A stretch of 64,000 nucleotides of DNA from assembly GCF_002155695.1 (NCBI RefSeq), contig NZ_MUYJ01000002.1, forward strand, positions 124,001 through 188,000, given 5' to 3'. Below, piece after piece: positions 45,871 through 64,000 of the stretch. Position numbers and translations under genes: made by a program. Source of the stretch: Erythrobacter tepidarius. Lineage in GTDB: Bacteria > Pseudomonadota > Alphaproteobacteria > Sphingomonadales > Sphingomonadaceae. The notes under the pieces are model-generated. The model saw only the letters and a program-made list of their open reading frames with translations. It searched no databases and was not told the origin of the DNA. Every line of letters starts with the position of its first letter. Positions within the stretch are counted from its first letter, which is position 1.

Positions 45871-47226
45871 ATGGCGGTTACTGATCACGTCGACTTGAAC
45901 GGCTTCATGGAGGGCGTGAAGAAGCGCAATCCGCATCAGCCGGAATTCGTCCAGGCCGTGCAGGAAGTGGCCGAGGACATTTTCGAATTCATCCAGGACA
46001 AGGAGGAGTATCACGCGCAGCAGATCCTGCGCCGCATCGCTGAGCCTGATCGCGTGGTCTCGTTCCGGGTGTGCTGGGAGGACGACAACGGCAACATCCG
46101 CGTGCAGCGCGGCTGGCGCGTGCAGAACAACAATGCGATCGGCCCCTACAAGGGCGGCATCCGCTTCCACCCCTCGGTGAACGAGTCGGTGCTGAAGTTT
46201 CTGGCCTTCGAACAGACCTTCAAGAACGCGCTCACCGGCCTGCCGATGGGCGGCGGAAAGGGCGGGGCCAACTTCAATCCCAAGGGCAAGTCGGTGCGCG
46301 AGATCATGCGCTTCTGCCAGTCCTTCATGACCGAGCTCTATCGCCACATCGGCGCCGATGTCGACGTTCCGGCGGGCGACATCGGCGTGGGCGCGCGCGA
46401 GATCGGCTTCATGTTCGGCCAGTACAAGCGCATCACCAACCACTTCACCGGCGTGCTCACCGGCAAGGGGCTGGAATGGGGCGGCTCGCTGATCCGCACC
46501 GAAGCGACCGGCTACGGCGCGGTCTATTTCCTCGAAAACATGCTGGCGACCAAGGGCGAGGGCGTGGCCGGCAAGACCGCGGTGATCTCAGGATCGGGCA
46601 ATGTCGCCACCCATGCGGCGGAAAAGATCGTGCAGCTCGGCGGCAAGGTGCTGACCCTTTCGGACAGCGGTGGCTTCATCCACGATCCCGACGGTATCGA
46701 CCAGGAAAAGATCGACTGGGTGAAAACCCACAAGACCCACCGTCGCGGCCGGATCGAGGAATATGTCGAGGCCTTCCCCAGGGCGACTTTCCACCCCGGC
46801 AAGACCCCATGGGGCGTGCCCTGCGACGTCGCCCTGCCCTGCGCCACGCAGAACGAATTGCTGGGAGAGGATGCCAAGACACTGATCGCCAACGGCTGCA
46901 AGGCAGTTTCGGAAGGCGCGAACATGCCGACCGACCTCGACGGGGTGCACGTCTTCAAGCACCACAAGATCCTCTACGCCCCGGGCAAGGCCTCGAACGC
47001 GGGCGGCGTGGCGGTTTCGGGCCTCGAAATGAGCCAGAACTCCGAACGCCGCTCGTGGAAGGAGGAAGAGCTCCAGCAGATGCTCAAGGACATCATGAAG
47101 GGCATCCATGACAGCTGCATCCGCTATGGCGATCAGGGCGACGGTTACATCGACTACGTCAAGGGCGCGAATATTGCCGGCTTCAAGAAGGTTGCCGACG
47201 CGATGCTGGCGTTTGGCGTCGTGTAG
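45871..47226 (+). CDS. gdhA: glutamate dehydrogenase (hexameric, NADP-type likely)
   Basis: A 451-residue enzyme interconverting glutamate and 2-oxoglutarate plus ammonia. The dimerisation/substrate part includes GWRVQNNNAIGPYKGGIRF, the catalytic Lys block GLPMGGGKGGANFNPKGKS, and PAGDIGVGAREIGFMFGQYK. The Rossmann part has SGSGNVATHAAEKI and a Ser (DSGG) after the second strand rather than an acidic residue, which favours NADP(H). Length and motifs match the 450-residue bacterial GdhA family. I start it at the ATG at 45871; the longer open frame overlaps hemN out of frame. Confidence 0.95.
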   Translation: MAVTDHVDLNGFMEGVKKRNPHQPEFVQAVQEVAEDIFEFIQDKEEYHAQQILRRIAEPDRVVSFRVCWEDDNGNIRVQRGWRVQNNNAIGPYKGGIRFHPSVNESVLKFLAFEQTFKNALTGLPMGGGKGGANFNPKGKSVREIMRFCQSFMTELYRHIGADVDVPAGDIGVGAREIGFMFGQYKRITNHFTGVLTGKGLEWGGSLIRTEATGYGAVYFLENMLATKGEGVAGKTAVISGSGNVATHAAEKIVQLGGKVLTLSDSGGFIHDPDGIDQEKIDWVKTHKTHRRGRIEEYVEAFPRATFHPGKTPWGVPCDVALPCATQNELLGEDAKTLIANGCKAVSEGANMPTDLDGVHVFKHHKILYAPGKASNAGGVAVSGLEMSQNSERRSWKEEELQQMLKDIMKGIHDSCIRYGDQGDGYIDYVKGANIAGFKKVADAMLAFGVV

Positions 47227-47673: not shown

Positions 47674-47691
47674 AGGAATGTCCTTCATCGT

Positions 47692-48636
47692 TCAGAACCA
47701 GAAACGGATGCCCGCCACAAGGCTGGTGGAAGAGGAAGCCTGTCCGGCAGCGCGCGCGAAATCCGCGCCCTTGCCGGTCCGCCATGATTGCTCGATGCCG
47801 ATATAGGGCGCGAATTCGCGACGAAATTCATAGCGCAGCCGCGCGCCGGCCTCGATCTGGTCGATCCCCGCCCCGATGCCGAGTTCGGGCACGTCCTGCG
47901 CGGACAGATTGGCCTCGATGCGCGGCTGGAGGATCAGGCGCTGGGTGATGCGCTGGTCGACCTCGCCTTCGATCCGCGCGGTCAGGTCGCCGCGATGAGA
48001 GAGGAACAGCGCGGCGTCGATCTCGAACATGTAGGGTGCAAGGCCCTGCACGCCGATCACCGCATGGGTGGTGTCGGGCCCGGCGATATCTTGGCGGATG
48101 CCTGCCTGCATGTCCCAGAAGGGCGCGAAGGCGCGGGCATAAAGCGCCTGGACTTCGGCATCCTCGGGCGAGGCGCCCCACTCGCCCTCGCCCTCGCTCT
48201 TGAACCACAGGCGGCTGGTGGGGCCGCCGTAATAGCCTTGGATATCCCACAGATAGAGGTCCTGGCCCTCGCGCAGCTGCGTCTCCAGCCGGTCACCCTG
48301 AAGCCAGAACACCGGAAAATCGCCATGGGTGCGGCGCAGTTCCTCGCGCGAGGCGGCCATTGCCGCGCTGCCCCAGATCGCGTCGGCGGCGCGCGGCGGC
48401 CCGCTTCCGGCGGATGCGGGAGGAGGGGTTTCCATGCTCGGCCCCGGAGAGGCTGGCTCGGCTGCATCGTTCATCGCGTGCCCTGCGTGCAGGTCGTGGC
48501 CGGCGTCCGGATCCTGTGCGCCGACAGCCTCATGCGCGGCATGATCTTTCTGCTCCCCGGCAGGCGCGTGTTGCCGGTGCTGCGCGGCGAGCGGCGAGCC
48601 GGTCGCCAGAAGCGCGAAAGCGATCGCAATCCTCAC
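47692..48636 (-). CDS. copB: copper resistance protein CopB (outer membrane)
   Basis: A 314-residue outer-membrane copper-resistance protein. After a signal peptide there is a His/Met-rich segment (AAQHRQHAPAGEQKDHAAHE; DAGHDLHAGHAMND) likely to bind copper, then the CopB beta-barrel domain (FWLQGDRLETQLREGQDLYLWD; RYEFRREFAPYIGIEQSWRTG) ending in VAGIRFWF with terminal Phe. Its ATG overlaps the copA stop (ATGA). Confidence 0.92.
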   Translation of the reverse strand: MRIAIAFALLATGSPLAAQHRQHAPAGEQKDHAAHEAVGAQDPDAGHDLHAGHAMNDAAEPASPGPSMETPPPASAGSGPPRAADAIWGSAAMAASREELRRTHGDFPVFWLQGDRLETQLREGQDLYLWDIQGYYGGPTSRLWFKSEGEGEWGASPEDAEVQALYARAFAPFWDMQAGIRQDIAGPDTTHAVIGVQGLAPYMFEIDAALFLSHRGDLTARIEGEVDQRITQRLILQPRIEANLSAQDVPELGIGAGIDQIEAGARLRYEFRREFAPYIGIEQSWRTGKGADFARAAGQASSSTSLVAGIRFWF

Positions 48637-50351: not shown

Positions 50352-50357
50352 GCGTTC

Positions 50358-50780
50358 CTACACGCGGCGGGCGCGGTTCGGGGTGCCTTGCGACTGGCCT
50401 TGCTCGGGAATGCGGAAGGCGGCCAGGATCGGGCACGGACCCTTCGCGCCTTTCGCGCAGTCGTCAACCAGCTCCTTGAGCGCGGCACGCATCCTTGTGA
50501 GGGTCGCGATTTTTTCGTCAATCGCGATGATGCGGGCTTCGGCAAGCGCGCGGGCGGCAGCGCGGTCGTCGCTTTCGAGGCCGAGCAGGATGGCGATCTC
50601 CTCAAGCGTGAAGCCCGCTGTCTGCGCCGCCCGGATCGAGCGCAGCCGCTCCAGATCCGCTGCCGTGTAGCGCCGCACTCCCTTTGCGCGCGGCGGCTCG
50701 GCAAGCAGTCCGCGGCGCTGATAGAAGCGGATCGTCTCGACCGAGACACCGCCGGCACTCGCCAGATCACCAATCTTCAT
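50358..50780 (-). CDS. MerR family metal-responsive regulator
   Basis: A 140-residue MerR-type activator/repressor. The winged HTH (MKIGDLASAGGVSVETIRFYQRRGLL) and dimerisation helix are standard. The C-terminal metal loop CAKGAKGPCPIL has two Cys seven residues apart; C-x(7)-C is found in CueR-type Cu(I) sensors, while MerR uses a different set, so a monovalent metal is plausible. It is the first gene of the merR-copABC operon and faces a MerR-type promoter that points the other way. Confidence 0.88.
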   Translation of the reverse strand: MKIGDLASAGGVSVETIRFYQRRGLLAEPPRAKGVRRYTAADLERLRSIRAAQTAGFTLEEIAILLGLESDDRAAARALAEARIIAIDEKIATLTRMRAALKELVDDCAKGAKGPCPILAAFRIPEQGQSQGTPNRARRV

Positions 50781-51248: not shown

Positions 51249-52199
51249 CTAGCTGATCCCCAGCACCGCTGCCTGGCGCTTGAGCTCGGCGGCCTCGTCC
51301 GGATTGGCCTTGATCGCCGCTTCCAGCGCAGCCCTGGCCTTGGCCGGTTCGCCCAAGGTCATGCGGCTGCGCATCAGCATCACCCAGCCGTCAGGGTTTC
51401 GGGGTTGCCTCCTCAGCCGCTCCTCGAGCCGGGCGACCATGCCTTCGGCCATCTGGCGCTGTTCGGACGGCTTCAGGCTGCTTGCTGCGGCGACCTCGGC
51501 CGCGCTCGGCCCGCGGACATTGGGCGAGGCGGCATCGCCGGCTATGCTGCCCGAACCTGGGGCGAGGATCGCGGGCTTGCGGCCCTCCCGCGCCTTGGCG
51601 AGGCGCGCGGCGACATCGATCTGGTTCATCTTCCCGACCTGTTCGATCGTGCGCACCAGATCTGCCTCCCACGGCGCGCCTGGCGGGGTGTCGGCGAGAA
51701 GATCGAGCCAAGCGGCGATCGCGCCTTCATGATCCTTGTCGAGATCCTTCTTGGCGGCAAGAAAATAGCGCGCCCGCGGGTCTTGCGGATCGAGCGCCAC
51801 CGCCTTCTCGAACGCGGCCAGCGCCTCGGGGGGGAGCGGATCGCGCTTCGAGGCCATCACCAGCGCCTCACCCAGCGCCGACCACAGCACCGCCGCAGCC
51901 GGATCGATTGCGACCGCGCGGCGGTAGGCTCCGGCCGCCTCGCCGAATTCCCCCGCCTGGAAATAGGCAAAGGCGAGGTCCGCCCATGGCCCGGCGTCGT
52001 CCTTCGACGCCTCGGCAGCGGCGCGCAACTCTTCGATTGTCTGCGGCGCATCAGTCGCAGCGGCTTCATCCGATCCGCCACCCGCACCTTGGGAAAGATT
52101 GTAGCCGATCGAGCCCGCGGCGAGCAGCAGCGCCGCCCCCAGCAATATCCATCCCGCCTTCGATGACCCGCCCCTGGCGGACTGTTCGCTCGTTCCCAT
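51249..52199 (-). CDS. TPR protein, CycH/CcmI-like (c-type cytochrome biogenesis)
   Basis: A 316-residue protein with one N-terminal membrane helix (GWILLGAALLLAAGSIGYNL) and periplasmic TPR repeats (WADLAFAYFQAGEFGEAAGAYRRAV; LWSALGEALVM; ALAAFEKAVALDPQDPRARYFLA). The C-terminal part MAEGMVARLEERLRRQP then PDGWVMLMRSRMTLGEPAKA resembles CcmI/CycH, which presents apocytochrome c to the haem lyase. It stands alone, divergent from the multihaem locus, and would fit a dedicated maturation helper for its ~20 haem sites. The CcmI assignment is by resemblance, not certain. Confidence 0.72.
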   Translation of the reverse strand: MGTSEQSARGGSSKAGWILLGAALLLAAGSIGYNLSQGAGGGSDEAAATDAPQTIEELRAAAEASKDDAGPWADLAFAYFQAGEFGEAAGAYRRAVAIDPAAAVLWSALGEALVMASKRDPLPPEALAAFEKAVALDPQDPRARYFLAAKKDLDKDHEGAIAAWLDLLADTPPGAPWEADLVRTIEQVGKMNQIDVAARLAKAREGRKPAILAPGSGSIAGDAASPNVRGPSAAEVAAASSLKPSEQRQMAEGMVARLEERLRRQPRNPDGWVMLMRSRMTLGEPAKARAALEAAIKANPDEAAELKRQAAVLGIS

Positions 52200-52310
52200 C
52201 CTGCCTCGCTAGCATCGCGCGCAAAAACGGGCAATTCGCTCTGGCATCCAAGGCGCAATTGGGTATGGTGTGCATGAAGGTGCGATCTATCCACGAAGGG
52301 GGGAGGATAG
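52200..52310. promoter_or_regulatory. divergent promoter region of the multihaem locus
   Basis: 111 bp between the minus-strand TPR gene and the plus-strand FAD/cNMP/ferredoxin gene. A strong Shine-Dalgarno (GGGGGGAGGAT) precedes the GTG at 52311. No FNR box or clear dyad is visible. Confidence 0.4.
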
Positions 52311-54848
52311 GTGACCGGGGTGTTCAAGGTCGCGATCATCGGATCTGGCCCTGCGGGCCTGAGCGCCGCCGCACGAGCCGCGGCGCTCGGCATCAGCCAC
52401 GTGCTGCTCGAAAAGACCGATCACCTCTCGGATACGATCTACAAATACCAGAAGGGCAAGCACGTCATGGCGACGCCCTCCAATCTGGTGCTGCGCTCGG
52501 ACATCGATTTCGACGCAGGCAAGCGCGAGACGATCCTCGCCATCTGGGAAGAGCAGATCGCCGGCCACAAGGTCAATGTGAAGTATCATGCCGAAGCCAA
52601 GGCGATCCGCGGCACCGGCGCTCCGATCCCTGGCTCGGTGCAGCAGATTGTCACCCGCGCGCGCGACGGCACCAGGAACGTCAAGGAAATCCAGCGCCAC
52701 GCCCCGCCCTATGCCATCGAGCTGACCAATGGCGAGACGGTGATGGCCGAGAACGTGGTCCTCGCCATCGGGACGCAGGGCAACCCCAACCGGATGCGCT
52801 GCCCGGGCGCTGATCTGCCGCATGTGCAGTACCAGCTCGACGATCCGACCGAATATGTCGACGAACATATCGTGGTTGTCGGCACGGGTGACGCGGGGAT
52901 CGAAAACGCCCGCGGGCTTGCCGAGGATCCGGCGCAGCGCAACACCGTCTCGATCCTCAACCGCGGCACCGAATTCCCGACCGCCAAACCGGCCAATGTC
53001 AGCGCGCTGATGGCCGATCACGAAGCGGGCAAGCTCACGATCCGCTTTGAAAGCGAGACCAAGGCGATCGAGCCGGGGTGGATCACGCTCGCAACCCGCG
53101 ACGGCGAGATCCGCATTCGCTGCGACCGGGTGATCGCGCGGATCGGTTCGGCCCCGCCCCGCGCCTTTGTCGAGGAATGCGGGATCGAGTTCACCAGCGA
53201 GGATCGCGGCGCCTTCCCCAAGCTTTCGCCGGTGTTCGAATCGACCGCGCCGGGCATCTTCGTGATTGGCGCCCTGGCGGGCTATCCGCTGATCAAGCAC
53301 TGCATGAACCAGGGCCACGACGTCATCGAGTTCATCAACGGCAACACCGACTTGAAGCCCGCCGACGAACCGATCATCGCCGCCAAGTTCGCAAATCTCC
53401 CCGGCAAGCGCAGCACCGAGGAATGGCTCGAGTTCCTGCGCGCCAACGTGTCGATTCTGAACGGCATGAACCCGCTCCAGATGCGCGAGTTCATGCTCGA
53501 CAGCGAAGTGAAATATTATGCTCCTGGCGAAGTGATCTTCGAGCGCAATGCGCCCGGCTCCTCTTTGTTCGGGATCGCCAGCGGCTCGGTTGCGGTGGAA
53601 GTGAACCCCGCCGATCCCTCGGTCACCATCCCGATCGAGACCGGCTCGATCTTCGGCGAGGTGGGCCTGATTTCCGGACGCCGCCGCGGGGCGACCATCC
53701 GTGCGGCGGAAGACACCATCGTGGTCGAAATCTCGCGCCTTGCCGCGCTCAAACTGCAATCGCAGGTGCCATCCGCGAAGAATGCCATCGAACGCATCTC
53801 GATCGAGCGCCAGCTGCTGCAGATGTTCGGATCGGGGCTGACGCGCGAGGATGTCGCACCACTGGTCGAGGCCGCCCAGGTCGAGGAAAAGCGAGCAGGC
53901 GAAGTGGTTGTGGCCGAAGGCGCGGACGACAAGGATGTGTTCATCATCCGCCGCGGCTCGATGATCGTCGAAAAGCAAATCGGCGACAGGCCGGTGTTCC
54001 TCTCCTACTTGCCCGCCGGATCATACTTTGGCGAAATGGCGGTGATCGACGGGTCGAAGCGTACCGCGACGGTCAAGGCGGCGATCAAGTCGGAAGTGAT
54101 CCGCCTGCCGGGCGAGGGCTTCCTCCGACTGCTCGACAGGAACCCGCGGCTGCGCGAGCGCGCACTCAAGGACATGGAGGGCCGGCGCGCCACCAATGCC
54201 TTCATCGAAGCGCAGAAGGACAGCTTCTCCGGCGCGGTCGATCTCTATTCCAAGACCGCGCAGTTCCTCGTCGACAACGGCATCGGCGAGGCGACCGACG
54301 TGCTGCTGATCGACGAGAAGCTGTGCATCGGCTGCGACAACTGCGAAAGGGCCTGCGCCGATAGCCATGACGGACTCTCGCGGCTCGATCGCGAGGCAGG
54401 CAAGACCTACGCCCACCTGCATGTGCCGACCTCGTGCCGCCATTGTGAGCACCCGCACTGCATGGCCGACTGCCCGCCAAACGCGATCAAGCGCGGGCCG
54501 GACGGCGAGGTGTTCATCGACGAGACCTGCATCGGCTGCGGCAATTGCCAGCGCAACTGCCCCTACGGCGTGATCCGCATGGATGCCAAGCCGCCCAAGA
54601 AGCCAAGCCTCTTGCAATGGATGCTGTTCGGCAAGGGCCCCGGGCCGGGCGAGCCCTCCTACAGCTGGCGCAAGAAGGCCATCGAGGCCGAGGGCGTGCA
54701 GAAGCCGAAGCAGGCGATAAAGTGCGACATGTGCTCCGGCATCGATGGTGGCCCGGCCTGCGTGCGCGCCTGCCCGACCGGGGCGGCGATCCGCGTCAGC
54801 CCAGACAAGTTCCTGACCTTCACCAAGCTCACCGAGGACGCCGAGTAA
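52311..54848 (+). CDS. fusion protein: FAD/NAD(P) oxidoreductase + two cyclic-nucleotide-binding domains + four-cluster ferredoxin
   Basis: An 845-residue protein without a signal peptide or membrane helix. Residues 1-330 form a thioredoxin-reductase-like flavoprotein: FAD motif GSGPAG (11-16), NAD(P) motif VVVGTGDAG (~190) and the FAD-closing FVIGALAG. It lacks the redox CxxC of thioredoxin reductase. Residues ~400-510 and ~525-640 are two cNMP domains, each with the phosphate-binding cassette (FGEVGLISGRRRGATI; FGEMAVIDGSKRTATV). Residues ~670-835 hold 16 Cys in DmsB/NrfC order: CIGCDNCERAC, CRHCEHPHCMADC, CIGCGNCQRNC, CDMCSGIDGGPACVRAC, i.e. four [4Fe-4S] clusters. GTG start at 52311. The stop overlaps the next gene (TAATG). 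Probably a cytoplasmic, cAMP/cGMP-gated NAD(P)H-to-ferredoxin-type electron gate; the function is inferred. Confidence 0.85.
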   Translation: MTGVFKVAIIGSGPAGLSAAARAAALGISHVLLEKTDHLSDTIYKYQKGKHVMATPSNLVLRSDIDFDAGKRETILAIWEEQIAGHKVNVKYHAEAKAIRGTGAPIPGSVQQIVTRARDGTRNVKEIQRHAPPYAIELTNGETVMAENVVLAIGTQGNPNRMRCPGADLPHVQYQLDDPTEYVDEHIVVVGTGDAGIENARGLAEDPAQRNTVSILNRGTEFPTAKPANVSALMADHEAGKLTIRFESETKAIEPGWITLATRDGEIRIRCDRVIARIGSAPPRAFVEECGIEFTSEDRGAFPKLSPVFESTAPGIFVIGALAGYPLIKHCMNQGHDVIEFINGNTDLKPADEPIIAAKFANLPGKRSTEEWLEFLRANVSILNGMNPLQMREFMLDSEVKYYAPGEVIFERNAPGSSLFGIASGSVAVEVNPADPSVTIPIETGSIFGEVGLISGRRRGATIRAAEDTIVVEISRLAALKLQSQVPSAKNAIERISIERQLLQMFGSGLTREDVAPLVEAAQVEEKRAGEVVVAEGADDKDVFIIRRGSMIVEKQIGDRPVFLSYLPAGSYFGEMAVIDGSKRTATVKAAIKSEVIRLPGEGFLRLLDRNPRLRERALKDMEGRRATNAFIEAQKDSFSGAVDLYSKTAQFLVDNGIGEATDVLLIDEKLCIGCDNCERACADSHDGLSRLDREAGKTYAHLHVPTSCRHCEHPHCMADCPPNAIKRGPDGEVFIDETCIGCGNCQRNCPYGVIRMDAKPPKKPSLLQWMLFGKGPGPGEPSYSWRKKAIEAEGVQKPKQAIKCDMCSGIDGGPACVRACPTGAAIRVSPDKFLTFTKLTEDAE

Positions 54849-55717
54849 TGGCAACCAAGGCAACCGGTGGCATCGGACGGTTCGCGCAGGACGAGCGGCG
54901 GCGCGATTCCGATCACGTCAGCTTTCTGAAGCACAAGGGCTTTCGCTGGTTGTGGATCGCGCTCGGCCTGTGTCTGGCTGCGATTGCGGGCTATCTGCTG
55001 ATCGATCAGGAGCCGCGCCCCAACGGCGGATCGTGGTACGGCTATACGCTGGGCACCATCGGCTTTGCGCTGATCCTGTGGCTCTCGCTGCTGGGAGTGA
55101 GGAAGCGGCGCATCAATCCGGGGGCGTGGAGCCTCAAGGCGTGGACCTCGGCCCATGTCTATCTCGGTCTATCATTGCTTGTCATCGGCACGCTGCACAC
55201 GGGCTTCCAGATCGGCTGGAACGTCCACACGCTCGCCTATGTGCTGATGCTGCTGGTGATCTTCTCCGGGATCTACGGTGTCTATGTCTATGCCACGCTG
55301 CCGCAGAGCCTGTCGGCCAATCGCAAGGAAATGACCCGCAAGCAGATGCTGGAGGCGCTGACCGCGATCGACCGCCAGCTCGAAAGCGCGGCCCAGCCGC
55401 TCGGGCGGGCCGAGGCCGATATGGTGATCGCGGCGCTGGAACAGGACGTCTTTGCCGGCGGGCCGGTCGCGCGGCTTACCGGCAGCTATCCGGGCTGTGC
55501 AACGGCACGGGCGCTGAGGGCCATCGGCACCGGCTCGCAAGCCGCCACCCGTGTCACGGCGCTGCTCGAAAAGCGCAGCGAACAGCTCGCCCAGATCCGC
55601 GGGCAATTGCGCATCCGCGCGATGCTGGAGATCTGGCTGTTCATCCACATCCCGCTGACCATCGCACTGCTCGCCGCGCTCACCGCGCACGTCATCAGCG
55701 TGTTTTACTACTGGTGA
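54848..55717 (+). CDS. five-helix membrane protein with dihaem cytochrome b histidine pattern
   Basis: A 289-residue inner-membrane protein. Helices are at about 32-52, 66-84, 101-120, 127-148 and 263-288, with a ~110-residue hydrophilic loop before the last. His103 and His117 lie 14 apart in helix 3, and His267 and His281 14 apart in helix 5: the spacing used by bis-His dihaem cytochromes b. I know no named family for it. Coupled to the upstream FAD/FeS gene by TAATG and 10 bp before the FHA-decahaem gene, it is the obvious membrane link between cytoplasmic FeS clusters (or quinol) and the periplasmic haems. Confidence 0.75.
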   Translation: MATKATGGIGRFAQDERRRDSDHVSFLKHKGFRWLWIALGLCLAAIAGYLLIDQEPRPNGGSWYGYTLGTIGFALILWLSLLGVRKRRINPGAWSLKAWTSAHVYLGLSLLVIGTLHTGFQIGWNVHTLAYVLMLLVIFSGIYGVYVYATLPQSLSANRKEMTRKQMLEALTAIDRQLESAAQPLGRAEADMVIAALEQDVFAGGPVARLTGSYPGCATARALRAIGTGSQAATRVTALLEKRSEQLAQIRGQLRIRAMLEIWLFIHIPLTIALLAALTAHVISVFYYW

Positions 55718-55727
55718 GGAACGGGCG

Positions 55728-57524
55728 ATGGCATTCCTGATCCGCACCATTGATTTGACCGCCGCCGGGCGCGAAATCGTCCGCGACCGCATGGTCGATC
55801 AGGCCAGCCTGACGATCGGGCGTGCAGCAGAAAACGATATCCACCTGCCCGACCTGGCAGTCGAGCAGAACCACGTCCGTCTTGTTCTTCAGTCCGACGG
55901 CACCTTGCTCGCCGCCGCGCTCGGTACGCTGGGGTTCGGGCTCGACGGGCGCACCGTCACCCAAGGCGTGATCGACCCGCGCACCGGAGGCGAGATCGCG
56001 CTGGGGACCGCACGCCTTGCCGTGGCGCGCGAGAGCGACGGCAATATCTCGATCACCATCCGCCAGATCATCCCGGACGAGGGCAAGGACGATGCGCTGC
56101 GCGGCTTCGCGCTCGCCAGCGTGCTGCCGTCCAAGCGCGCGATGAGCTGGATCTTCGCCGGCGCGATTGCGCTGTTGCTGCTGCTCGTTCCGATCGGCAG
56201 CCACCTGCTGCGCACGCCGGCCAAGAACGATCCAGAGGGCAAGACCCCTGGTCAGGTGCTGATGGATGCCGCCTGGTCGACCGGCGATCTCTCGCTCCGG
56301 CACCACAGCCTTGAGGACAATTGCGAGAGCTGCCACGTCAAGGCTTTCGAGAGCGTGCAGGATGAAACCTGCATCTCGTGCCACAAGGACACCGCCGCTC
56401 ACGCTGCGATGCCGCGTCAGACCAAGGGGATGCCGGCCTTGTCCGTCGGTGATGCGCTGCAATGGAACATCGCCCAAAGCCTCGGCAAGGAAGGCCCGCT
56501 GGGCTGCGTCTCGTGCCACAGCGAGCATGAAGGCAAGGTCCGCCAGCAGCCGGCCAGCGAAGCCTTCTGCGCGGACTGCCACGACAATCTCGACAGTCGC
56601 CTGACCGACACCAAACTGGCCGACGCGCATGATTTCGGCAAAGCGCACCCGCAGTTCCGCCCGGTATTCTACGCCAGCTTCGGTGCGACCAAGCCGGTGC
56701 GCGCCTCGCTCGACACCAGACCGGTCGAACGTAGCGGGCTGAAGTTCCCGCATGATGTCCACATGAATGCCCGCGGCGGCGCGGCGCGGATGGCGGTGAG
56801 CCTTCCCCGCTATGGCAAACCGCTCGAATGCAAGGACTGCCACAACCTCAACGCCGACAAGATCGGCTTCAAGCAGGTGAAGATGGAGGACGCCTGCGAG
56901 AGCTGCCACAGCCTCGTTTCCGGGCGCACGGCCGGAGGCGGCTTCAGCAAGCTGCGCCACGGCAATGTCAAGCATCTGGCGGAAGACCTTGCGCGCATCA
57001 GCACCGGTCCGCGCGCCACGCCGGCCTCAAGCCGCAAGCGCCCCGGCCAGTTCGCGCGCGGCGGGACCTATGCTGCCGATTTCGGTCGGCCGGTGCGCGC
57101 CTATATCGGCCTGTCCAACGCGCTTTCGGAAGGCGGGATTTGCACCGAGTGCCACATTCCCACCCGCAAGGCCGGGCAGGCCGATCTGATTCCGGTCAAC
57201 CTGCCCGATCGCTTCCTCGTCAGCGGTTTTTTCAGCCACGAGGCGCACAAAAAAGAGAAATGCACCGATTGCCACGCCGCCGACACCTCGAAACAGGCTA
57301 GCGACCTGCTGATCCCCGATCTCAAGTCTTGCCGCGATTGCCACCTCGGAGCGACGGCAGTGAAAACCAGGAAGATCGTGCCCTCGTCCTGCGCGATGTG
57401 TCATTCCTATCACGTCCCTTCGGGCCAGTGGTCGCCCAAGGGACCCGAACCGCACTACCAGCCCGCCGCCCCGCCCCTGGTGAGAGCGCGGGTTGCAGCA
57501 ATCGCAGGGACCGCTAGAAATTGA
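55728..57524 (+). CDS. FHA domain - transmembrane helix - decahaem cytochrome c fusion
   Basis: A 598-residue protein. Residues ~20-110 form an FHA domain (LTIGRAAENDIHLPD, then VEQNHVRL, where the usual S-R-x-H is altered to E-Q-N-H). One membrane helix follows at ~141-160 (WIFAGAIALLLLLVPIG). The C-terminal ~400 residues carry ten CxxCH motifs: CESCH, CISCH, CVSCH, CADCH, CKDCH, CESCH, CTECH, CTDCH, CRDCH and CAMCH. By topology the FHA part is cytoplasmic and the haems periplasmic. Multihaem c3-like domains and FHA domains are each common; this combination is not one I know. It likely takes electrons from the cytochrome b encoded upstream and passes them on in the periplasm. Confidence 0.85.
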   Translation: MAFLIRTIDLTAAGREIVRDRMVDQASLTIGRAAENDIHLPDLAVEQNHVRLVLQSDGTLLAAALGTLGFGLDGRTVTQGVIDPRTGGEIALGTARLAVARESDGNISITIRQIIPDEGKDDALRGFALASVLPSKRAMSWIFAGAIALLLLLVPIGSHLLRTPAKNDPEGKTPGQVLMDAAWSTGDLSLRHHSLEDNCESCHVKAFESVQDETCISCHKDTAAHAAMPRQTKGMPALSVGDALQWNIAQSLGKEGPLGCVSCHSEHEGKVRQQPASEAFCADCHDNLDSRLTDTKLADAHDFGKAHPQFRPVFYASFGATKPVRASLDTRPVERSGLKFPHDVHMNARGGAARMAVSLPRYGKPLECKDCHNLNADKIGFKQVKMEDACESCHSLVSGRTAGGGFSKLRHGNVKHLAEDLARISTGPRATPASSRKRPGQFARGGTYAADFGRPVRAYIGLSNALSEGGICTECHIPTRKAGQADLIPVNLPDRFLVSGFFSHEAHKKEKCTDCHAADTSKQASDLLIPDLKSCRDCHLGATAVKTRKIVPSSCAMCHSYHVPSGQWSPKGPEPHYQPAAPPLVRARVAAIAGTARN

Positions 57525-57526
57525 CG

Positions 57527-58411
57527 ATGGGCGGGAACGCTACAACTTCATCTCAGGCGGTGCTGATCGCGCAGATGACCGACATTCATGTCGGCTTCGC
57601 CCCCGATGACAAGCCCGAGGAACTGAACCTCACCCGGTTCCGCGCCACGCTGGAGCGGCTGCGGTCAGGCCCCAACATGCCCGATATGCTGGTTCTGTCG
57701 GGCGACATCACCGACCACGGCGATGCGGAAAGCTTCGCCAAGGCCGCCGATCTGCTGCGTGAGATGCCTTTCCCGATCGCACCGATGGTCGGCAATCACG
57801 ACAGCCGTGCAGGCCTTTTGGGGGCCTTCCCGCAGGTGACCCCGGCTGACGGTGGCTTTCTGCACTATGTCATCGAGGCGCGGCTTGGGCTTCGTATCAT
57901 CTGTCTCGATACGCTGGAAGAAGGTCGCCACGGGGGCGCCTTCTGCGAAGCGCGGGCGCGCTGGCTAGCCGATCGGCTCGGCGAGGCGCCCGAGCAGCCG
58001 ACGCTGATCTTCATGCACCACCCGCCGGTGGTCGCCGGGATAGAATGGATGGATCCGGGCCAGCACGAGCCGTGGATGGAGCGCCTGCGCGAAGTGCTCA
58101 CCGGACAGTCGCAGGTGCAGGCAATCCATTGCGGGCATCTGCATCGCCCGATCACCACCCGTTTCGCCGGCATCCCACTGGGCGTCACGCCTTCGGTCGC
58201 GCCGCTGGTAGCGATGGACCTCACCCCGATCGACCAGAAAGTGCCCGATGACCGCGAGCTGATCGTCACCGAACCCCCGACCTATGCCTTGCACCGGTGG
58301 GACGGCACCAGCCTCGTATCGCATTACGAAAGCGTGGGCGACTGGCAGATACTGGCGCGCTTTCACGCCGGCTTGCAGCCGATGATCGAAGGCATGTTCG
58401 CCGAGCGCTGA
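57527..58411 (+). CDS. metallophosphoesterase, CpdA/Icc-type cyclic-nucleotide phosphodiesterase-like
   Basis: A 294-residue calcineurin-like phosphoesterase with the full class III cNMP-phosphodiesterase motif set: TDIHVG, LSGDITDHGD, GNHDSR, MHHPPV and HCGHLHR. No signal peptide, so cytoplasmic. I use the ATG at 57527; a TTG at 57521 overlapping the previous stop is possible. It is the last gene of the operon, directly after the FHA-decahaem gene. Together with the two cNMP domains in the first gene it suggests that the locus has its own cyclic-nucleotide turnover. Other substrates of the fold cannot be excluded. Confidence 0.82.
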   Translation: MGGNATTSSQAVLIAQMTDIHVGFAPDDKPEELNLTRFRATLERLRSGPNMPDMLVLSGDITDHGDAESFAKAADLLREMPFPIAPMVGNHDSRAGLLGAFPQVTPADGGFLHYVIEARLGLRIICLDTLEEGRHGGAFCEARARWLADRLGEAPEQPTLIFMHHPPVVAGIEWMDPGQHEPWMERLREVLTGQSQVQAIHCGHLHRPITTRFAGIPLGVTPSVAPLVAMDLTPIDQKVPDDRELIVTEPPTYALHRWDGTSLVSHYESVGDWQILARFHAGLQPMIEGMFAER

Positions 58412-58528
58412 GCAGCGCACATCGCTTCCCGCAAGGCATCATCGCAAGGCCAGGATGGCTGATGATCGTCCACCCCGTCTCGATCGCGGCTTGCCGCGTT
58501 TCGGCTTGGCTTCGCCTCGAGCAAGCGC
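58412..58528. other. 117-bp convergent gap, nothing recognised
   Basis: Between the phosphoesterase and the converging decahaem gene. No T-tracted hairpin is visible. Confidence 0.35.
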
Positions 58529-61500
58529 CTAGTTGCGCGCGCTGGCCCGTTGCGCTCCCCCCGGGCTGCGGCCAACCCAGCGGTTCATGTCGACATCGTC
58601 GCTCACCTTCCACGGCACGCCGCTGCGGGTCATGAACAGCCGCTCCATCTCAGGCCGGGTGAAGGGGCGCGAGCCGAGCCGCCCGAAAACCGCGATCTGC
58701 CCACCGGTCTCATCCACCGCACGGTCGCGATCGAGGCCCTTGCTGAGCGCGATGGCCGGTGTTGGCGTCTTCGCCCAGGCAATCAGTTCGGGCACTGGTG
58801 CAGGGCTGAAGCCGTAGAAATTGCGCTGGCTTGCAGGGCTGGTGAGTTGCAGCACCTTGATCCCGTTCCTCCCGTCCGCGACGTAAGCGAAGAGCGAGGC
58901 ATTGGTGGAGGCGACGATCACGTCCTCGGCATCGTTGAGCAGACCATCGAAGGTCACCTTCTGGAAGATCCGCGGGCGCGTGGGGTTCTTGACATCGAGG
59001 ATCACCAGACCATCGGCCTTGGCCGCGACATAGGCATAGGTGCGCGCAATATAGATGCGCCGCGCATCGGCGAGCGGCACACTCGCCTCGGGCACGGCGA
59101 CCGGATTGCGCAGGGAGGTGACATCGAACAGCTTTACCCCGTCGGCATCGCTCACCCACAGGTAGCGGAACTGCACCGCGCTTGCCCGGGCATCGCGAAG
59201 CGCGCGCACCGCGGCCAGCCGCGGCGCGTCAGGATTGGCGAGGTCGACCACCACCAGCCCCTTGTCCGCAGTGATGTAGGCCACTTCGCCCGCCAGCACG
59301 ATGTGCCGTGCTCCATTGAGCACCCCGTCCGGGTTCCACGCGGTCGTACCGTCGGCATAGACCTTGCGACGCAGCTGGTTGTTGCGGAATTCACCATCCG
59401 CCAGCGTGTTGACGTCGACGAGGATCAGACCTTCCACGCTGTCGGTCACCGCGGCGTAGTTGTAGATCGGCAGGAACGGCTGTTCCTGGTTCATCTCACG
59501 CATCTTTTCGGTGTTGCGCGCGGGCGCGACCGGCTGATTGGTGGCCAGCGCCATGCAGGTGGCATTGGTGGTCTTGACCTGCGTGTCATGGCCCAGAGCT
59601 GAGAACGGCCCCTTGAGGATGCGCTCCGAGGTGCCCTTGTTGGCGATGCTGGCAACGTCATAGACGACAAAGCCGCCCTTGCCCTCGGCCACGAACATAT
59701 ATTCGCCGCGCAGCTGGAGGCAGCCCACGCGGTCCGGCGTGCCCTCGTGGATGTTGACGAATTCCTCCATCGGATGGGTCTCGCCCGAGAGGTTCTTGTC
59801 GAAGGTCTTGCCGCGCACCCAGTTCTTCAATTCGCGGCCGTTCTGTTCGACGTGGAGCTTCCAGTAATCGGGATAGGCATAGCGGTGAAGGTAGGATCCG
59901 ATCACCGCTTGCGGCTCATCATATTCGGTCACGCGCGTGGCCTGGAACCCGCCTTCGAGCCCGGCCCATGCATTGAGCCCGACGAAATTGACATAGTTCG
60001 TGCCCAGCAACAGCAGCTGCGCCATGATTGCGTTGTTGTCATCCTTGGCCGACAGGTGGCAATCGGTGCAGGTCTTGGTCTCGGTCTTGCGCACGGTGTG
60101 CGGAAAGTGCGGCGCGAAGGCTTGCGAGGAAAAGCCGATCGCGGAAATCGGCGGCTGCTGCACATAGATTCGTTCGCGGTTTATGTTGGTCGAGGAGAGC
60201 ACCAGCGCCGAGGACGAACGCACGGGCGCAATCTGGCCGCCCTTGGTGGTCATGTGCTTGCCGAGCTGGAACATTTCATCGCGCGCAACCTGCGGGTTAT
60301 AGGTCGCGAAATTGCGCGTCTCGCCGCCTTCGTAGCGGTGGACCTTGCTCTTCCAGTTGGCCTCGATTGGCAGGTGGCAGCCGCCGCAGCTGGTCGTCCA
60401 GGAGAGGTGACAGGTGAAGCACGCCATGTCCGGATCGCGGTGCGCGCGCTCGTCTGCCGGGATACCGGTGCCAAATTCGAAATTGCCGGTTTCCGCGCCA
60501 TACCGGCTGACGAGCTTGGCGCGCGCCGCCTTGGCGTTGAATTCCGGCGTGGCCGGATCGACGCTGTCCTTGACGAGGCTCATCTCCCATTCGAGATTGG
60601 GATCGACGATCGAGCGTTGGATCAGCTTGCGCCGGCCATCGGCACCTTCCATCCATTCGAACCGCCGCTTGCCATCGGGATTGCGCAGCAGCAACAGGTT
60701 GTGGCCTTCGGGCGGCGCCGCCGGGCCGCTGGTGCGCAGCGTCGGGTAGGCGTCGGGCGTGCCGTGGCAGTCCTTGCAGGTTATCTCGATCGCATTGGCG
60801 ACTTCGCCATAGATCAGCCCGTTGCCGTGGCTATCCTGCTCGAAGTGGCAATCGGCGCACTGCATCCCGACTTCGGCGTGGATGTCCATCAAGTGAACCG
60901 CCTTGCCCGGATTCTTGCCGGGCCCGACGAACTGGCCCTCGTCCTTGCGGCGCCACTTCTCCGGATCTTCGGGATCGATGATATTGCCTTCGGCGTCGAG
61001 CAGGTTGCCCTCACGGTCACGCTTGAAGATCGCGCGGAAGTTCCAGCCGTGGCCGTGGTAGTCGGCGAACTGGGTGTCCTTGAGCTTGGGGTTCAGGTCA
61101 TACACGTTGCGCAGGAAGTCGAGATCGGCCCACTTGCCGCGCGGCGCGGCGCCTTCGGGATTGCGATCATTAACAGCGCGCACTTCCTCGGCGGTGGGAT
61201 ATTTCTGCTGTTCCGGCCACATGAAGGGCGCGTCGGACTCATAATCCCACATGGTGTAGCCGAGGAACGAGTTCAGGAAGATGTTGGGCTGGTGCATGTG
61301 GCAGTTCATGCACTGGCTGGTGGGAATGGCGCGGGTGAAGACGTGCTGGAGCGGGTGGCCCTTCTCCTTCTGCTGCCCGTTATAGGTGAGCGTGTCGTCG
61401 GCATCCTTGCCCGGCCCGCTCGCCCCGCCGTGAGCATCGTCTCGGCTCTGGCCCGGTTCCTTGACCGCCCCATGGCGGCGCTTGCCCTTGCCATAGCCGG

Positions 61501-62656
61501 CTGCGTGCTCGAGCTTGGCAGCGATGGTCGGATCGACCGAGATCGACTGACCGTCGCGCCCATATTGCGCATAGATCAGCGAATGGCGCGGCTCGCGGTC
61601 GTTGGCGTAGATCACGTGGCACGAAGCGCAGCCCGAATGGCGATAGTCACCCGGCTGGTCATTGGTGCCCATGAACCAGGTGAAGGGATCATTGAGGCGG
61701 GTCTTGTGGATATTGAGCACCGGAATCGCGACGCGCAAGCCCGTGCCGGGGCCGCGGTTCGACTGCTTGAGATCGGGCCGCCCCGGCTCTTCCAGACGCT
61801 GGATCTGGCCGGTCGGATTGGGCAGGCCGATTTCCGGAAACTGCGAGTTGATCGTGCGCCCGCCGCGCTCGAACACGCGGAAGATATCGCCCGGCGGGAT
61901 CACGTGCCAGGTCGGCAGCGGATACATTTCCGCAAGGACACCGCGCGCGATCTGGTCTTGCGAGAGCTTGCCGTCTGGCCCGGCGCCCGGTGTGGTGATC
62001 TTCGCGGCCTTGCCGTCGCGGGTATAGGCCTCGCCCAGCAGGTAGTTCTTGAAGGGCAGGATGCCGTTGTTGTAGCTCGCCCCACCCCACAGCATGGCGC
62101 CGGTCGCCATGATCGAGCGTTCGGCGCTCTCGATCGCCTGGATATGGCACGCCCCACAGGCATCGCGCGCGACCCGGTAGTCCGACGGGTTCACGAACTT
62201 GATGAATTCCGGGCTTTCCTTGTTGAGCAGCGCGTAGGAACGCTTGGGGTTGGCCGAAGACGGATAGTGCCAGCTGTCGGGATACTTGGGCAGCACGTGC
62301 GCCTTGTCGCGCGCGGCGACGTAGTCGGGATGGTCATGCGGCAGCTCGGGATTGCCGCGCACCGTGGCATCACCCCCGTGGCAATCGGTGCAGCCCAGCC
62401 GCACCGCCGGGGTCAGGTGCATGGTCGGCGCGTCGGTCTTGACGTGACAGGTGTTGCAGCCTTCCGACTTGGCCTCCATCTCCGCTACGGACTGACGCGC
62501 TGGAGCCGGCGGCGCGATCACCCGGGAATAGTCCCGCTTGACGGGCTTTTCCTTGTCCGCCGCCATGGTGTCACCAGCGAAGAGCGCCAGAGCGAGCAAC
62601 AGCGCCGACATCAGCAAGGCGATATGACGAACGAGGGGTTGGCCGAGCTTGAGCAT
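58529..62656 (-). CDS. giant secreted decahaem cytochrome c with C-terminal LVIVD-type beta-propeller
   Basis: A 1375-residue exported protein. The signal peptide is around residues 8-32 (ending TMAADK). Ten CxxCH motifs lie between residues ~67 and ~867: CNTCH, CTDCH, CGACH, CASCH, CMNCH, CADCH, CKDCH, CFTCH, CGGCH and CTDCH. From ~970 to ~1290 the chain repeats LVIVD-type blades (KGGFVVYDV; EGLILVDVNTL; KGLVVVDLANPDAPRL; DGVKLFDVTSLRNPV; DGLVILDVKNPTRPRI; NGIKVLQLTSP), a cell-surface propeller fold. Its ATG overlaps the stop of the upstream porin gene (TGATG). Placement at the outer membrane as the exit cytochrome of a porin-cytochrome conduit is an inference. Confidence 0.85.
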   Translation of the reverse strand: MLKLGQPLVRHIALLMSALLLALALFAGDTMAADKEKPVKRDYSRVIAPPAPARQSVAEMEAKSEGCNTCHVKTDAPTMHLTPAVRLGCTDCHGGDATVRGNPELPHDHPDYVAARDKAHVLPKYPDSWHYPSSANPKRSYALLNKESPEFIKFVNPSDYRVARDACGACHIQAIESAERSIMATGAMLWGGASYNNGILPFKNYLLGEAYTRDGKAAKITTPGAGPDGKLSQDQIARGVLAEMYPLPTWHVIPPGDIFRVFERGGRTINSQFPEIGLPNPTGQIQRLEEPGRPDLKQSNRGPGTGLRVAIPVLNIHKTRLNDPFTWFMGTNDQPGDYRHSGCASCHVIYANDREPRHSLIYAQYGRDGQSISVDPTIAAKLEHAAGYGKGKRRHGAVKEPGQSRDDAHGGASGPGKDADDTLTYNGQQKEKGHPLQHVFTRAIPTSQCMNCHMHQPNIFLNSFLGYTMWDYESDAPFMWPEQQKYPTAEEVRAVNDRNPEGAAPRGKWADLDFLRNVYDLNPKLKDTQFADYHGHGWNFRAIFKRDREGNLLDAEGNIIDPEDPEKWRRKDEGQFVGPGKNPGKAVHLMDIHAEVGMQCADCHFEQDSHGNGLIYGEVANAIEITCKDCHGTPDAYPTLRTSGPAAPPEGHNLLLLRNPDGKRRFEWMEGADGRRKLIQRSIVDPNLEWEMSLVKDSVDPATPEFNAKAARAKLVSRYGAETGNFEFGTGIPADERAHRDPDMACFTCHLSWTTSCGGCHLPIEANWKSKVHRYEGGETRNFATYNPQVARDEMFQLGKHMTTKGGQIAPVRSSSALVLSSTNINRERIYVQQPPISAIGFSSQAFAPHFPHTVRKTETKTCTDCHLSAKDDNNAIMAQLLLLGTNYVNFVGLNAWAGLEGGFQATRVTEYDEPQAVIGSYLHRYAYPDYWKLHVEQNGRELKNWVRGKTFDKNLSGETHPMEEFVNIHEGTPDRVGCLQLRGEYMFVAEGKGGFVVYDVASIANKGTSERILKGPFSALGHDTQVKTTNATCMALATNQPVAPARNTEKMREMNQEQPFLPIYNYAAVTDSVEGLILVDVNTLADGEFRNNQLRRKVYADGTTAWNPDGVLNGARHIVLAGEVAYITADKGLVVVDLANPDAPRLAAVRALRDARASAVQFRYLWVSDADGVKLFDVTSLRNPVAVPEASVPLADARRIYIARTYAYVAAKADGLVILDVKNPTRPRIFQKVTFDGLLNDAEDVIVASTNASLFAYVADGRNGIKVLQLTSPASQRNFYGFSPAPVPELIAWAKTPTPAIALSKGLDRDRAVDETGGQIAVFGRLGSRPFTRPEMERLFMTRSGVPWKVSDDVDMNRWVGRSPGGAQRASARN

Positions 62657-64000
62657 CAGTAGGTCAGCACCACGTTGGCAAGGACGGAATAGAAATTCCG
62701 GTCATTATCGAGCGTGTCGAACAGATCCTTGAAGCCGTCACCGGCCAGCAGCGTCGCCGCCGAAAGACGCAGGACGATGTTCTGGGTCGCCTTGGGCCGC
62801 CAGATCGCCGCGGCGGAAAGATCGAAACCGATCTCCTTGGGAATCGACCCTTCGTTGCGCAGCGCCTCGAGGTTGGAGGTGTTCTCGAACCACAGGTGGT
62901 TGGCATTGGCAGAAAGACGGAACTGCGGCGTCAGATCGAAATCCGCGCCCACGCCCAGCAGCATCAGGCCGGGATTGTTGAAGTTGCTCTGCCCCTGCTC
63001 CTTCGACGAGCGCAGCGAATTGAGCAGGCCATTGCGACCATTGACGCCGATCGCCCGGCCACCACCGGCGAAGGGAATGGTTTGGCGGATCCAGTAGGAG
63101 GTATCGGCCCCGGCAAAGACCGGGTTCTCGAAGATCGCGTCAAACCCACCTTCCTTGTCGTCATAGGGATCGCTGTCGCCGCTGGCATAGGCGCCCGACA
63201 GGCGGAAGCGCATCCAGTCCTTGTCATAGCTCGCCTCGATCGCGGCGAACTGGGCATTGATGTCGGCCGGACGGTCGGTGAAGAAGGAATTGCGGTCTTC
63301 GCCCAGCGCCCAGTAGAAGCTGCCCGTCAGATTGACCCGGCCAATCCGACCATCGACATTGTAGCCGAGATAGACCACGTCATATTCGCGCCCCCTCAGC
63401 GTCCCCAAAAGCGCCGGGCGCACCGGGAAGCCGTTGGTGTCGATCTGGATGTCGTCGGCCTCGCGGTTCATGTTGTAGACCACGGTGAACTGGCTGGTTA
63501 GCGCCGGGATCAGGAAGTCCTGCCGGTAGGCATTGGCGACGAAGACGAAATCGTCGCGCGGGGAGCGCAGGATCGCGTTGAGGCCGGAATTGGTGTCCTT
63601 CTCCAGCCGCCAGAAGGCGCCGAGGTTGAACTGGAAGCGGTTGTTGTCGCGCGATCCGAACAGCCGCACGCCCAATTGTTGGTCGTTGAACAGGAAGCCG
63701 CGGAAGTCCGACTGGAACGGCTGGATGCCGGCGCGGACCGAGATGAAATCGAAGCGGTCGCTGTCGAACTGGCTGAAGTGGTAATCGATGAAGGCTTCCT
63801 GCACCCCGAGGAATTGGTCCAGCCTATGGCTCGGCTTCGAGGGCTCGACGAACAGCACGCGCCGTTCAGGCACGTCGACATAGTTGACGTTGTAGGCCAG
63901 CGTCAGACGATATTCGATCGTTGGCGGCTTGAAGGTGGTTGAACCCTTGAGCAGCGCGAAACCCGCGATGAAAGTCTGGCTGAAGACCTGCGAGAAATCA
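62656..64000 (-). CDS. outer-membrane beta-barrel protein, partial (N-terminus beyond the window)
   Basis: The frame is open from the window edge to the stop at 62656, giving ~448 C-terminal residues. They consist of alternating amphipathic strands rich in aromatic ends (FDFISVRAGIQPFQSDFRG; FQFNLGAFWRLEKD; RVNLTGSFYWALGED; RFRLSGAYASGD) and finish in SVLANVVLTY, as in barrel proteins. Acidic, Asn/Asp-rich loops are frequent. It is coupled by TGATG to the decahaem-propeller gene, as porins are to cytochromes in MtrAB/PioAB-type conduits; I see no direct similarity to MtrB that would fix the family. Confidence 0.75.
   Translation of the reverse strand, partial: DFSQVFSQTFIAGFALLKGSTTFKPPTIEYRLTLAYNVNYVDVPERRVLFVEPSKPSHRLDQFLGVQEAFIDYHFSQFDSDRFDFISVRAGIQPFQSDFRGFLFNDQQLGVRLFGSRDNNRFQFNLGAFWRLEKDTNSGLNAILRSPRDDFVFVANAYRQDFLIPALTSQFTVVYNMNREADDIQIDTNGFPVRPALLGTLRGREYDVVYLGYNVDGRIGRVNLTGSFYWALGEDRNSFFTDRPADINAQFAAIEASYDKDWMRFRLSGAYASGDSDPYDDKEGGFDAIFENPVFAGADTSYWIRQTIPFAGGGRAIGVNGRNGLLNSLRSSKEQGQSNFNNPGLMLLGVGADFDLTPQFRLSANANHLWFENTSNLEALRNEGSIPKEIGFDLSAAAIWRPKATQNIVLRLSAATLLAGDGFKDLFDTLDNDRNFYSVLANVVLTY

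Follow-up and report, generated by a model that had tools for sequence, protein, structure and literature searches.

In the 64,000-nucleotide stretch of Erythrobacter tepidarius DNA analysed here (the window; bases 124001-188000 of contig 22 in a 3.2 Mb draft genome), positions 51249-64000 carry part of a multihaem cytochrome locus that we read, with about an even chance of being right, as a transenvelope electron-transfer chain whose entry step is under cyclic-nucleotide control. The set has a defined gene content, is inherited as a unit across the family Sphingomonadaceae, retains its cofactor- and ligand-binding residues, and includes a membrane protein, C, that is homologous to the inner-membrane proteins (IMPs) of conduits resembling the predicted types PCC3 and PCC4. 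Seven genes make up the core: B, C, D, H (HbpS-like), G, F and I (pentahaem). These genes and their neighbours are as follows.

A, 51249..52199, minus strand: CcmI/CycH-like TPR protein of 316 aa, divergent from B (Pfam PF23914).
B, 52311..54848, plus strand: 845 aa, GTG start; FAD/NAD(P) reductase fold, two cyclic-nucleotide-binding (cNMP) domains and four predicted [4Fe-4S] sites.
C, 54848..55717, plus strand: membrane protein of 289 aa with two WX3HX13H motifs and SGXXG.
D, 55728..57524, plus strand: degenerate FHA/YscD-like fold (about residues 22-101), one transmembrane helix (by eye) and ten CXXCH.
E, 57527..58411, plus strand: class III cyclic-nucleotide phosphodiesterase-like metallophosphoesterase, a relative of SpdA and CpdA.
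F, 58529..62656, minus strand: decahaem protein of 1375 aa; export signal by eye, LVIVD repeats at the C-terminal end.
G, 62656..64000, minus strand: predicted outer-membrane barrel, cut by the window end; the complete gene encodes 624 aa (L002:757-2631).
H, beyond the window, minus strand: HbpS-like protein, lipobox by eye.
I, beyond the window, minus strand: c554-like pentahaem protein.
J, beyond the window, minus strand: 247 aa, no Pfam match, FecR-like by eye.
K, beyond the window, minus strand: CHASE2 and class III cyclase.
L, beyond the window, minus strand: CHAT protein.
Glutamate dehydrogenase, 45871..47226, plus strand: recurrent neighbour and co-occurring gene, outside 51249-64000.

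The arrangement is that of the first-pass annotation, which had described six genes in two converging operons and a divergent CcmI-like gene: open reading frames (ORFs) occupy all of these positions, with A on the minus strand diverging from B-C-D-E on the plus strand, which converge on F and G on the minus strand. The TAATG overlap of B with C and the TGATG overlap of G with F are real, and D and E stand two bases apart (TGA-CG-ATG) without overlapping. The layer identities assigned to these genes also hold, as Pfam recovers the FAD/NAD(P), two cNMP, 4Fe-4S, LVIVD, metallophosphoesterase and CcmH/CycH-type TPR matches. The minus-strand run is cut by the window end and extends about 18.5 kb further; in the stretch L002, the last 16 kb of which lie beyond the window, G is followed on the same strand by H, I, J, K and L in that order.

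B would be the cytoplasmic entry protein for electrons. Its Pfam matches comprise a Pyr_redox fold, the two cNMP domains and 4Fe-4S domains including PF13247. In residue-count alignments with rows kept by length (78 of 83 for B, 67 of 71 for C, all 81 for D, 88 of 93 for H, 77 of 78 for I and 103 of 107 for F), its 16 Fe-S cysteines and the glycines of its dinucleotide motifs (G11, G13, G16, G191 and G193) are kept in at least 95% of the 78 sequences. C returns nothing beyond weak b-type cytochrome matches in Pfam; its W-x3-H-x13-H motif, which occurs twice, and its SGxxG motif are kept in at least 95% of 67 sequences and were also viewed in an alignment of 24, and C would thereby carry two haems b. 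D matches cytochrome c7/c3 domains and, weakly, an FHA/YscD fold, and spaces its haems at about 60 residues each; the window copy has ten CXXCH, as do 78 of the 81 sequences, the other three having nine. The four CXXCH and one CX4CH of I are present in all 77 sequences, and I therefore probably binds five haems. A natural fusion of B and C (L212:6850-10206, 1118 aa) adjoins a relative of D; the genes downstream of it resemble, by eye, chemotaxis receptors, and F, G and H were without match in the 19.9 kb around it.

At the outer end stands F, the most conserved member of the set, in which Pfam identifies LVIVD repeats and cytochrome c7. Its gene spans 4128 bp, its ten CXXCH are present in 103 of 103 sequences, and each haem is accompanied by about 137 residues. 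At 329 of its 1375 positions the residue of the window copy is kept in at least 98% of those of the 103 rows that have a residue there, and 12 histidines outside the CXXCH motifs are kept in at least 98% of rows. The outer-membrane barrel that had been assigned to G takes the form of a predicted 18-strand barrel (long strands counted by hand; mean pLDDT 77), the best structural matches of which in the PDB are AlgE and OprD-type barrels, and full-length G has no Pfam match up to an E-value of 0.1. Searching by sequence returned no PDB relative for F or for G. The structure alignments used 38 of 39 and 34 of 35 chosen relatives, plus the query row.

Evidence that these genes form one multi-layer redox set, as had been proposed, comes from their distribution, which we assessed at E-value thresholds of 0.001 for F, 1e-100 for B and 1e-30 for D. 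F is found in 72 of 199 family genomes, representing 40 of 96 genera (best piece of each match 68-100% identical), a frequency at odds with the rarity in sphingomonad-type bacteria that the first-pass annotation had supposed. B and D each occur in 71 of the 199 genomes, in every case among the 72 with F. The three lists agree (F against B by program, D by eye) except at G022, a 67% complete genome with F alone, and hence, at these thresholds, B and D are missing from all 127 F-negative genomes. This all-or-nothing pattern recurs at close range, as at least seven genera (g1, g15, g29, g35, g38, g78 and g79) include some species with all three genes and others with none. Independent occurrence of the genes in related genomes, the outcome that would have refuted the first-pass reading, was thus not seen within the family. 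At class level a strong F match occurs in 29 of 385 genomes (one a contig-end fragment) and any match in 34, five of these being weak local matches; at phylum level the corresponding counts are 11 and 21 of 398.

Public species genomes hold at least 585 relatives of F. The best 80 of these, many with loci cut by contig ends, are mostly filed as Alpha-, Beta- or Gammaproteobacteria, a few metagenome-assembled genomes (MAGs) bearing odd labels. Three MAGs (L155, L168 and L172) are titled 'Bordetella parapertussis' or 'Klebsiella pneumoniae' and look like mislabelled environmental bins. As to conserved gene order, for which a check had been proposed, B-C-D-H-G-F are collinear and in one direction in 51 of the 80 loci, followed by I in 30 of these, so that the set is collinear in other classes as well as co-inherited in the family. 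A second order, C-D-H-G-F-I-B, appears in seven of the 80, mostly under betaproteobacterial labels. G adjoins F in 30 of 30 genomes examined and H adjoins G in 29, lying about 3 kb off in G047. Within the family the layout is more varied: among 18 genomes, nine have the converging layout, one has B-C-D-E upstream of I on one strand and eight have B-C-D elsewhere, the co-occurrence of F with B and D thus extending to genomes in which the two blocks are separated. In these eight moved blocks E directly follows D every time and A lies within 4 kb of B in seven, so that in this family both count as part of the B-C-D block.

The members of the set differ in conservation. In the 37 genomes that have the complete set of seven, the window's among them, the median identity between pairs is 63% for F, 52% for G, 51% for H, 50% for B, 42% for C, 37% for I and 29% for D. 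Distances for F correlate with those of the other six genes at 0.88-0.93, as expected for shared descent, although the species phylogeny alone would also suffice to produce this. Carriers include Sphingobium herbicidovorans MH, Steroidobacter agaridevorans SA29-B and Limnobacter alexandrii LZ-4, and plasmid copies exist, among them one on the S. herbicidovorans plasmid pMSHV with a layout almost identical to that of the window locus.

The cyclic-nucleotide link is carried by B itself. In its two cNMP cassettes R459 and R584, which we take to be the phosphate-binding arginines of the CRP-type G-E...R cassette, are each present in 78 of 78 sequences, and the glutamates E450 and E575 in 77 and 66 of 78. 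Cyclic-nucleotide sensing by B is therefore likely, to judge by these residues, and two such well-preserved domains on the entry protein suggest that a cell signal switches the current on and off. The sensing modules named in the first-pass annotation fared unevenly: the cNMP residues and the constant place of E beside D in the moved blocks support it, and FHA sensing by D is not supported. In D the FHA fold keeps its glycine, and Arg32 is found in 61 of 78 sequences; Ser at position 46, presumably with Arg32 a phosphothreonine contact of FHA receptors, is found in 6 of 71. Phosphothreonine sensing by this domain is accordingly rejected, and since the serine is mostly lost the fold is more likely a docking module.

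The enzymes that might make and break the nucleotide are less constant. E exceeds the cut-off of the superfamily model PF00149 (calcineurin-type phosphoesterase) and falls below both NCBIfam equivalog cut-offs, with 80.9 of 225 bits for CpdA and 129.4 of 400 bits for SpdA. The CHASE2-cyclase K, in which the metal-binding Asp and the Lys and Thr that we assume to define an adenylate cyclase are present by eye, lies upstream in the E. tepidarius genome and on the I-H-G strand in 8 of 18 family genomes examined. Neighbours in the 80 loci, query loci included, are PP2C in 21, an FHA protein in 19, a CHASE2-cyclase in six and a kinase-like protein in three. By sequence, then, the receptor residues of B appear near-universal whereas the nucleotide-making and -breaking enzymes vary. 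A transcriptional explanation of the cNMP link through CRP boxes was rejected, as there were 10 matches across the window against 14 expected and none upstream of B.

A possible electron source is the glutamate dehydrogenase encoded about 4 kb from A, a relative of which on plasmid pMC4 is annotated as NADP-specific. Relatives 54-92% identical to it lie near the conduit in 10 of 30 genomes, on pMC4 and in three of the 80 loci (one a contig-end fragment), so that among Alpha- and Gammaproteobacteria the dehydrogenase sometimes neighbours the conduit. Most F-positive genomes have it away from the conduit, and there the association is one of co-occurrence. In a first sample of 41 hand-picked genomes it was present in 19 of 21 F-positive and 2 of 20 F-negative genomes (matches below 1e-160). 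The family-wide search (E-value 1e-100) covered 175 genomes of the program's own draw, taken by inference as G000-G174, an assignment on which F status rests, and found it in 61 of the 67 genomes with F and in 15 of the 108 without, counts that ignore phylogeny. At 76% identity or more the figures are 60 of 67 against 1 of 108, where identity to the window copy partly tracks relatedness. The F-positive genomes lacking it are G022, G071, G075, G135, G147 and G171. Within the seven mixed genera the dehydrogenase varies with F in three (g15, g35 and g78) and is constant in four (g1, g29, g38 and g79).

With the topology as read from the sequence, these elements can be assembled into a path. B would take electrons from NAD(P)H, in the family perhaps from NADPH supplied by the partner glutamate dehydrogenase, and pass them from FAD by way of four [4Fe-4S] clusters to C. 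The two haems b of C would take them over the inner membrane to the membrane-anchored D with its ten haems. D, the pentahaem I or both would then bring them to the barrel G and the exported decahaem F, and the acceptor served by F would lie beyond the inner membrane, probably on the cell surface. Flow, its outward direction and the surface location of F are what we infer. A cyclic nucleotide, presumably cAMP, would bind the two domains between the flavin and Fe-S parts of B and turn the chain on or off, its level set by the phosphodiesterase E in sphingomonads and, in some, by the CHASE2 adenylate cyclase of the same gene run. We advance tentatively, and consider rather unlikely in its entirety, a stronger version in which the chain is gated by a second messenger such that NADPH from the dehydrogenase sends electrons across the envelope only when cAMP binds B, with cyclase, phosphodiesterase and receptor at one locus. 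This would give largely aerobic Pseudomonadota a widespread yet unstudied way to dump or use electrons outside, and the gating module would be common to at least some PCC4-type conduits.

Several observations weigh against the gated outward chain. In the main rival to it, F would be a substrate-specific multihaem reductase, placed outside the cell or in the periplasm, to which B-C-D supplies electrons from NAD(P)H, rather than part of a general conduit for minerals or electrodes. We regard this alternative as possible though doubtful. It is favoured by the high conservation of F, which far exceeds that of D, C or I and (median 63% against 29% for D) fits a substrate-specific enzyme at least as well as a wire; cytochromes of surface conduits tend to diverge faster. 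The 329 near-invariant positions include 12 non-CXXCH histidines, more than ten bis-His haems need, and F devotes about 137 residues to each haem and adds a propeller. F has a Sec-type signal that lacks a lipobox by eye, so that its surface location is a prediction, and its model (residues 40-925, 39-row alignment) reaches a mean pLDDT of 50. The MtrB barrel has 26 strands; G, with 18 and a likeness to AlgE and OprD, is smaller and need not hold a haem chain. Yet a barrel gene adjoins F in all 30 genomes examined, and relatives of B-C-D serve other multihaem sets, from which it follows that the same front end feeds different outer ends. The front end is indeed separable from F outside the family: a strong C match (1e-66 or better) occurs in 15 of 398 phylum genomes, 11 of them with F, and in the other four (G579, G604, G709 and G710) no F match was found. 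B-C-D is thus also used without F, which speaks against strict coupling beyond the family and fits the view that it serves several outer ends. In G604 a B-C fusion and D lie in surroundings that lack F, G and H, and the loci of G579 and G710 are close to contig ends. On the regulatory side, no CRP-like site was found upstream of B, and K was found in none of the 80 loci with the first queries and in six with wider ones, two being query loci and three partial, so that the cyclase is not universal. The biochemistry of the chain is in every step a reading of sequence.

Two further alternatives keep the chain and change its purpose. Electrons could flow inward: F would accept them from Fe(II), Mn(II) or another external donor, and the quinone pool or NAD(P)+ would receive them through the chain. 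Reduction of NAD(P)+ by Fe(II) is uphill at neutral pH, and the named hosts, Colwellia, Steroidobacter and Sphingobium among them, live mostly as heterotrophs; the fusion of a flavin NAD(P) domain with the entry protein, and the co-occurring glutamate dehydrogenase, point to NAD(P)H as donor. These points make inward flow improbable, even though one record, 'Haliea sp. isolate Biocath_Gamma_022', apparently comes from a biocathode metagenome and C has the full motif set of the PCC3/PCC4 IMPs, for which He et al. drew an uptake model (PMC5566968). A redox sensor seems more improbable still. In that case the set would measure electron back-up or the outside redox state and report it through cyclic-nucleotide, FHA/PP2C and CHASE2 partners with little net flux, in keeping with the signalling genes counted in the 80 loci and with the L212 fusion and D beside chemotaxis receptor-like genes; against this, a sensor built from about 25 haems c, two haems b, four clusters and a barrel would be costly, and signalling genes were not found in most of the 80 loci.

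The surroundings of the locus add several observations. A is the second CcmI-like gene of this genome, as another, 34% identical to it, lies beside CcmH on contig 11. Window positions 47293-50780 hold a copper-resistance-like cluster (CopC-like, CopB-like, multicopper oxidase and MerR regulator, by eye) that adjoins the locus; its multicopper oxidase and CopB-like proteins had no match at 1e-20 in the 151 regions examined, and the cluster is therefore probably not part of the conduit locus. Past L on the same strand lie a filamentous haemagglutinin-like protein of more than 2000 aa (by eye; L002:12079-18099) and a ShlB-type secretion partner (L175:1167-3053). On pMSHV (L093:2515-10668) a ShlB-type gene and a 6.3 kb gene annotated as hypothetical sit between J and I. 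An exported-looking protein of about 160 aa without Pfam match lies between D and H in eight of the 80 loci (for example L153:5729-6208).

Should the gated outward chain prove correct, extracellular or surface electron transfer would be common in soil, freshwater and marine Pseudomonadota not suspected of it, as about a third of the sampled family (72/199) carries the set and F has at least 585 relatives. It would be, to our knowledge, the first chain of respiratory type with cyclic-nucleotide receptors built into the protein at which electrons enter, and its regulation would be by direct gating and not by transcription. The patchy all-or-nothing spread in the family, the plasmid copies and the named carrier strains make these ideas directly testable.

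Among known systems, a reading as MtrCAB, MtoAB or PioAB is rejected, as G has no Pfam match and D scores 24.9 bits against the DmsE-type decahaem model, below its cut-off of 192.2. The Geobacter Ext reading is rejected as well: F matches ExtM weakly, with 56.9 bits against an NCBIfam cut-off of 800, in two stretches, the better one covering about 50 residues around haem motifs. Nearer kin are found among the conduits PCC3 and PCC4, predicted from gene content in 2017 by He et al. (PMC5566968). According to the portion of that paper used here, PCC4 comprises an IMP with two WX3HX13H motifs and one SGXXG, a PF13247 Fe-S gene upstream of the IMP (subgroup II), multihaem cytochromes with 4, 5 and 10 haems and a porin, with no extracellular multihaem cytochrome. 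C carries this complete motif set, kept in at least 95% of its 67 sequences, and B has PF13247 and lies upstream of C with a TAATG overlap. The haem counts differ, being 10 (D), 10 (F) and 5 (I) here, and D has an FHA-like N-terminus.

Our search with C also returned weak relatives, four of which (L213, L215, L218 and L219) lie in PCC4-like neighbourhoods, where the IMP gene is preceded by an Fe-S gene and followed by a decahaem gene, and a relative of I has three or four CXXCH; L215 has 5, 4 and 10 CXXCH. In these loci the Fe-S protein matches B over its cNMP and Fe-S domains, and relatives of C, D and I are encoded as well. Pfam finds cNMP domains in all three PCC4-like Fe-S proteins scanned (L213, L215 and L219), and by pattern the canonical cassette is recognisable in L213 and L215 and not in L218 or L219; cNMP domains go unmentioned in the PCC4 description of He et al. 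as far as it was available (PMC5566968). L213 encodes a separate NAD/2Fe-2S protein, whereas here the FAD/NAD(P) domain is fused to B. Profile alignment with hhalign joins C to the PCC4-like IMP at 99.2% probability (E-value 2e-19) and to the IMP of L216, called PCC3-like from a 21-CXXCH neighbour, at 2.5e-14. F, G and H were not found by tblastn at 1e-3 in the four PCC4-like stretches, and the alignment of G gave an hhalign probability of 0.2% against L213:2-1447, an ORF without Pfam match that is taken as the porin by position only. By these comparisons the set has its front end, B-C-D, in common with PCC4, and its outer end, made up of F, G and H, looks different. A plain PCC4 reading is rejected on the haem counts and because the search of the PCC4-like stretches did not find F, G or H; PCC4 is kept as the nearest kin. 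PCC3 resembles the present set in its barrel, exported and periplasmic multihaem cytochromes and IMP with the same His and SGXXG motifs; it differs in its cytochromes, with medians of 34 and 21 haems at 22-39 residues per haem as opposed to 10 and 10 at about 137 (F) and 60 (D), and the portion of its description used here includes no cNMP/Fe-S protein (PMC5566968).

A closer match in description comes from a June 2026 study of MAGs from the Sterkfontein karst, the 'first group' of which comprises 11 porin-cytochrome clusters with a 4-5 kb decahaem gene adjoining a porin of about 20 strands and, in 7 of the 11, a ferredoxin-NADP reductase nearby (PMC13264449). F as a 4.1 kb decahaem gene, G with 18 predicted strands and B with its NAD(P)/FAD reductase fold agree with this. 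A point of difference is that the words 'cyclic' and 'LVIVD' are absent from the main text of that paper. The group is probably the same set, matched by description only. No functional study of the gene set was found in the open-licence literature. The first-pass annotation had called the locus undescribed, and this holds only in part: PCC4-like loci encode relatives of C, D and I and of B in its cNMP/Fe-S portion, PCC4 was predicted in 2017 and, as far as its description goes, the Sterkfontein group fits. The set is thus real, conserved and under-studied, and is a variant of a predicted conduit type and not a new category.

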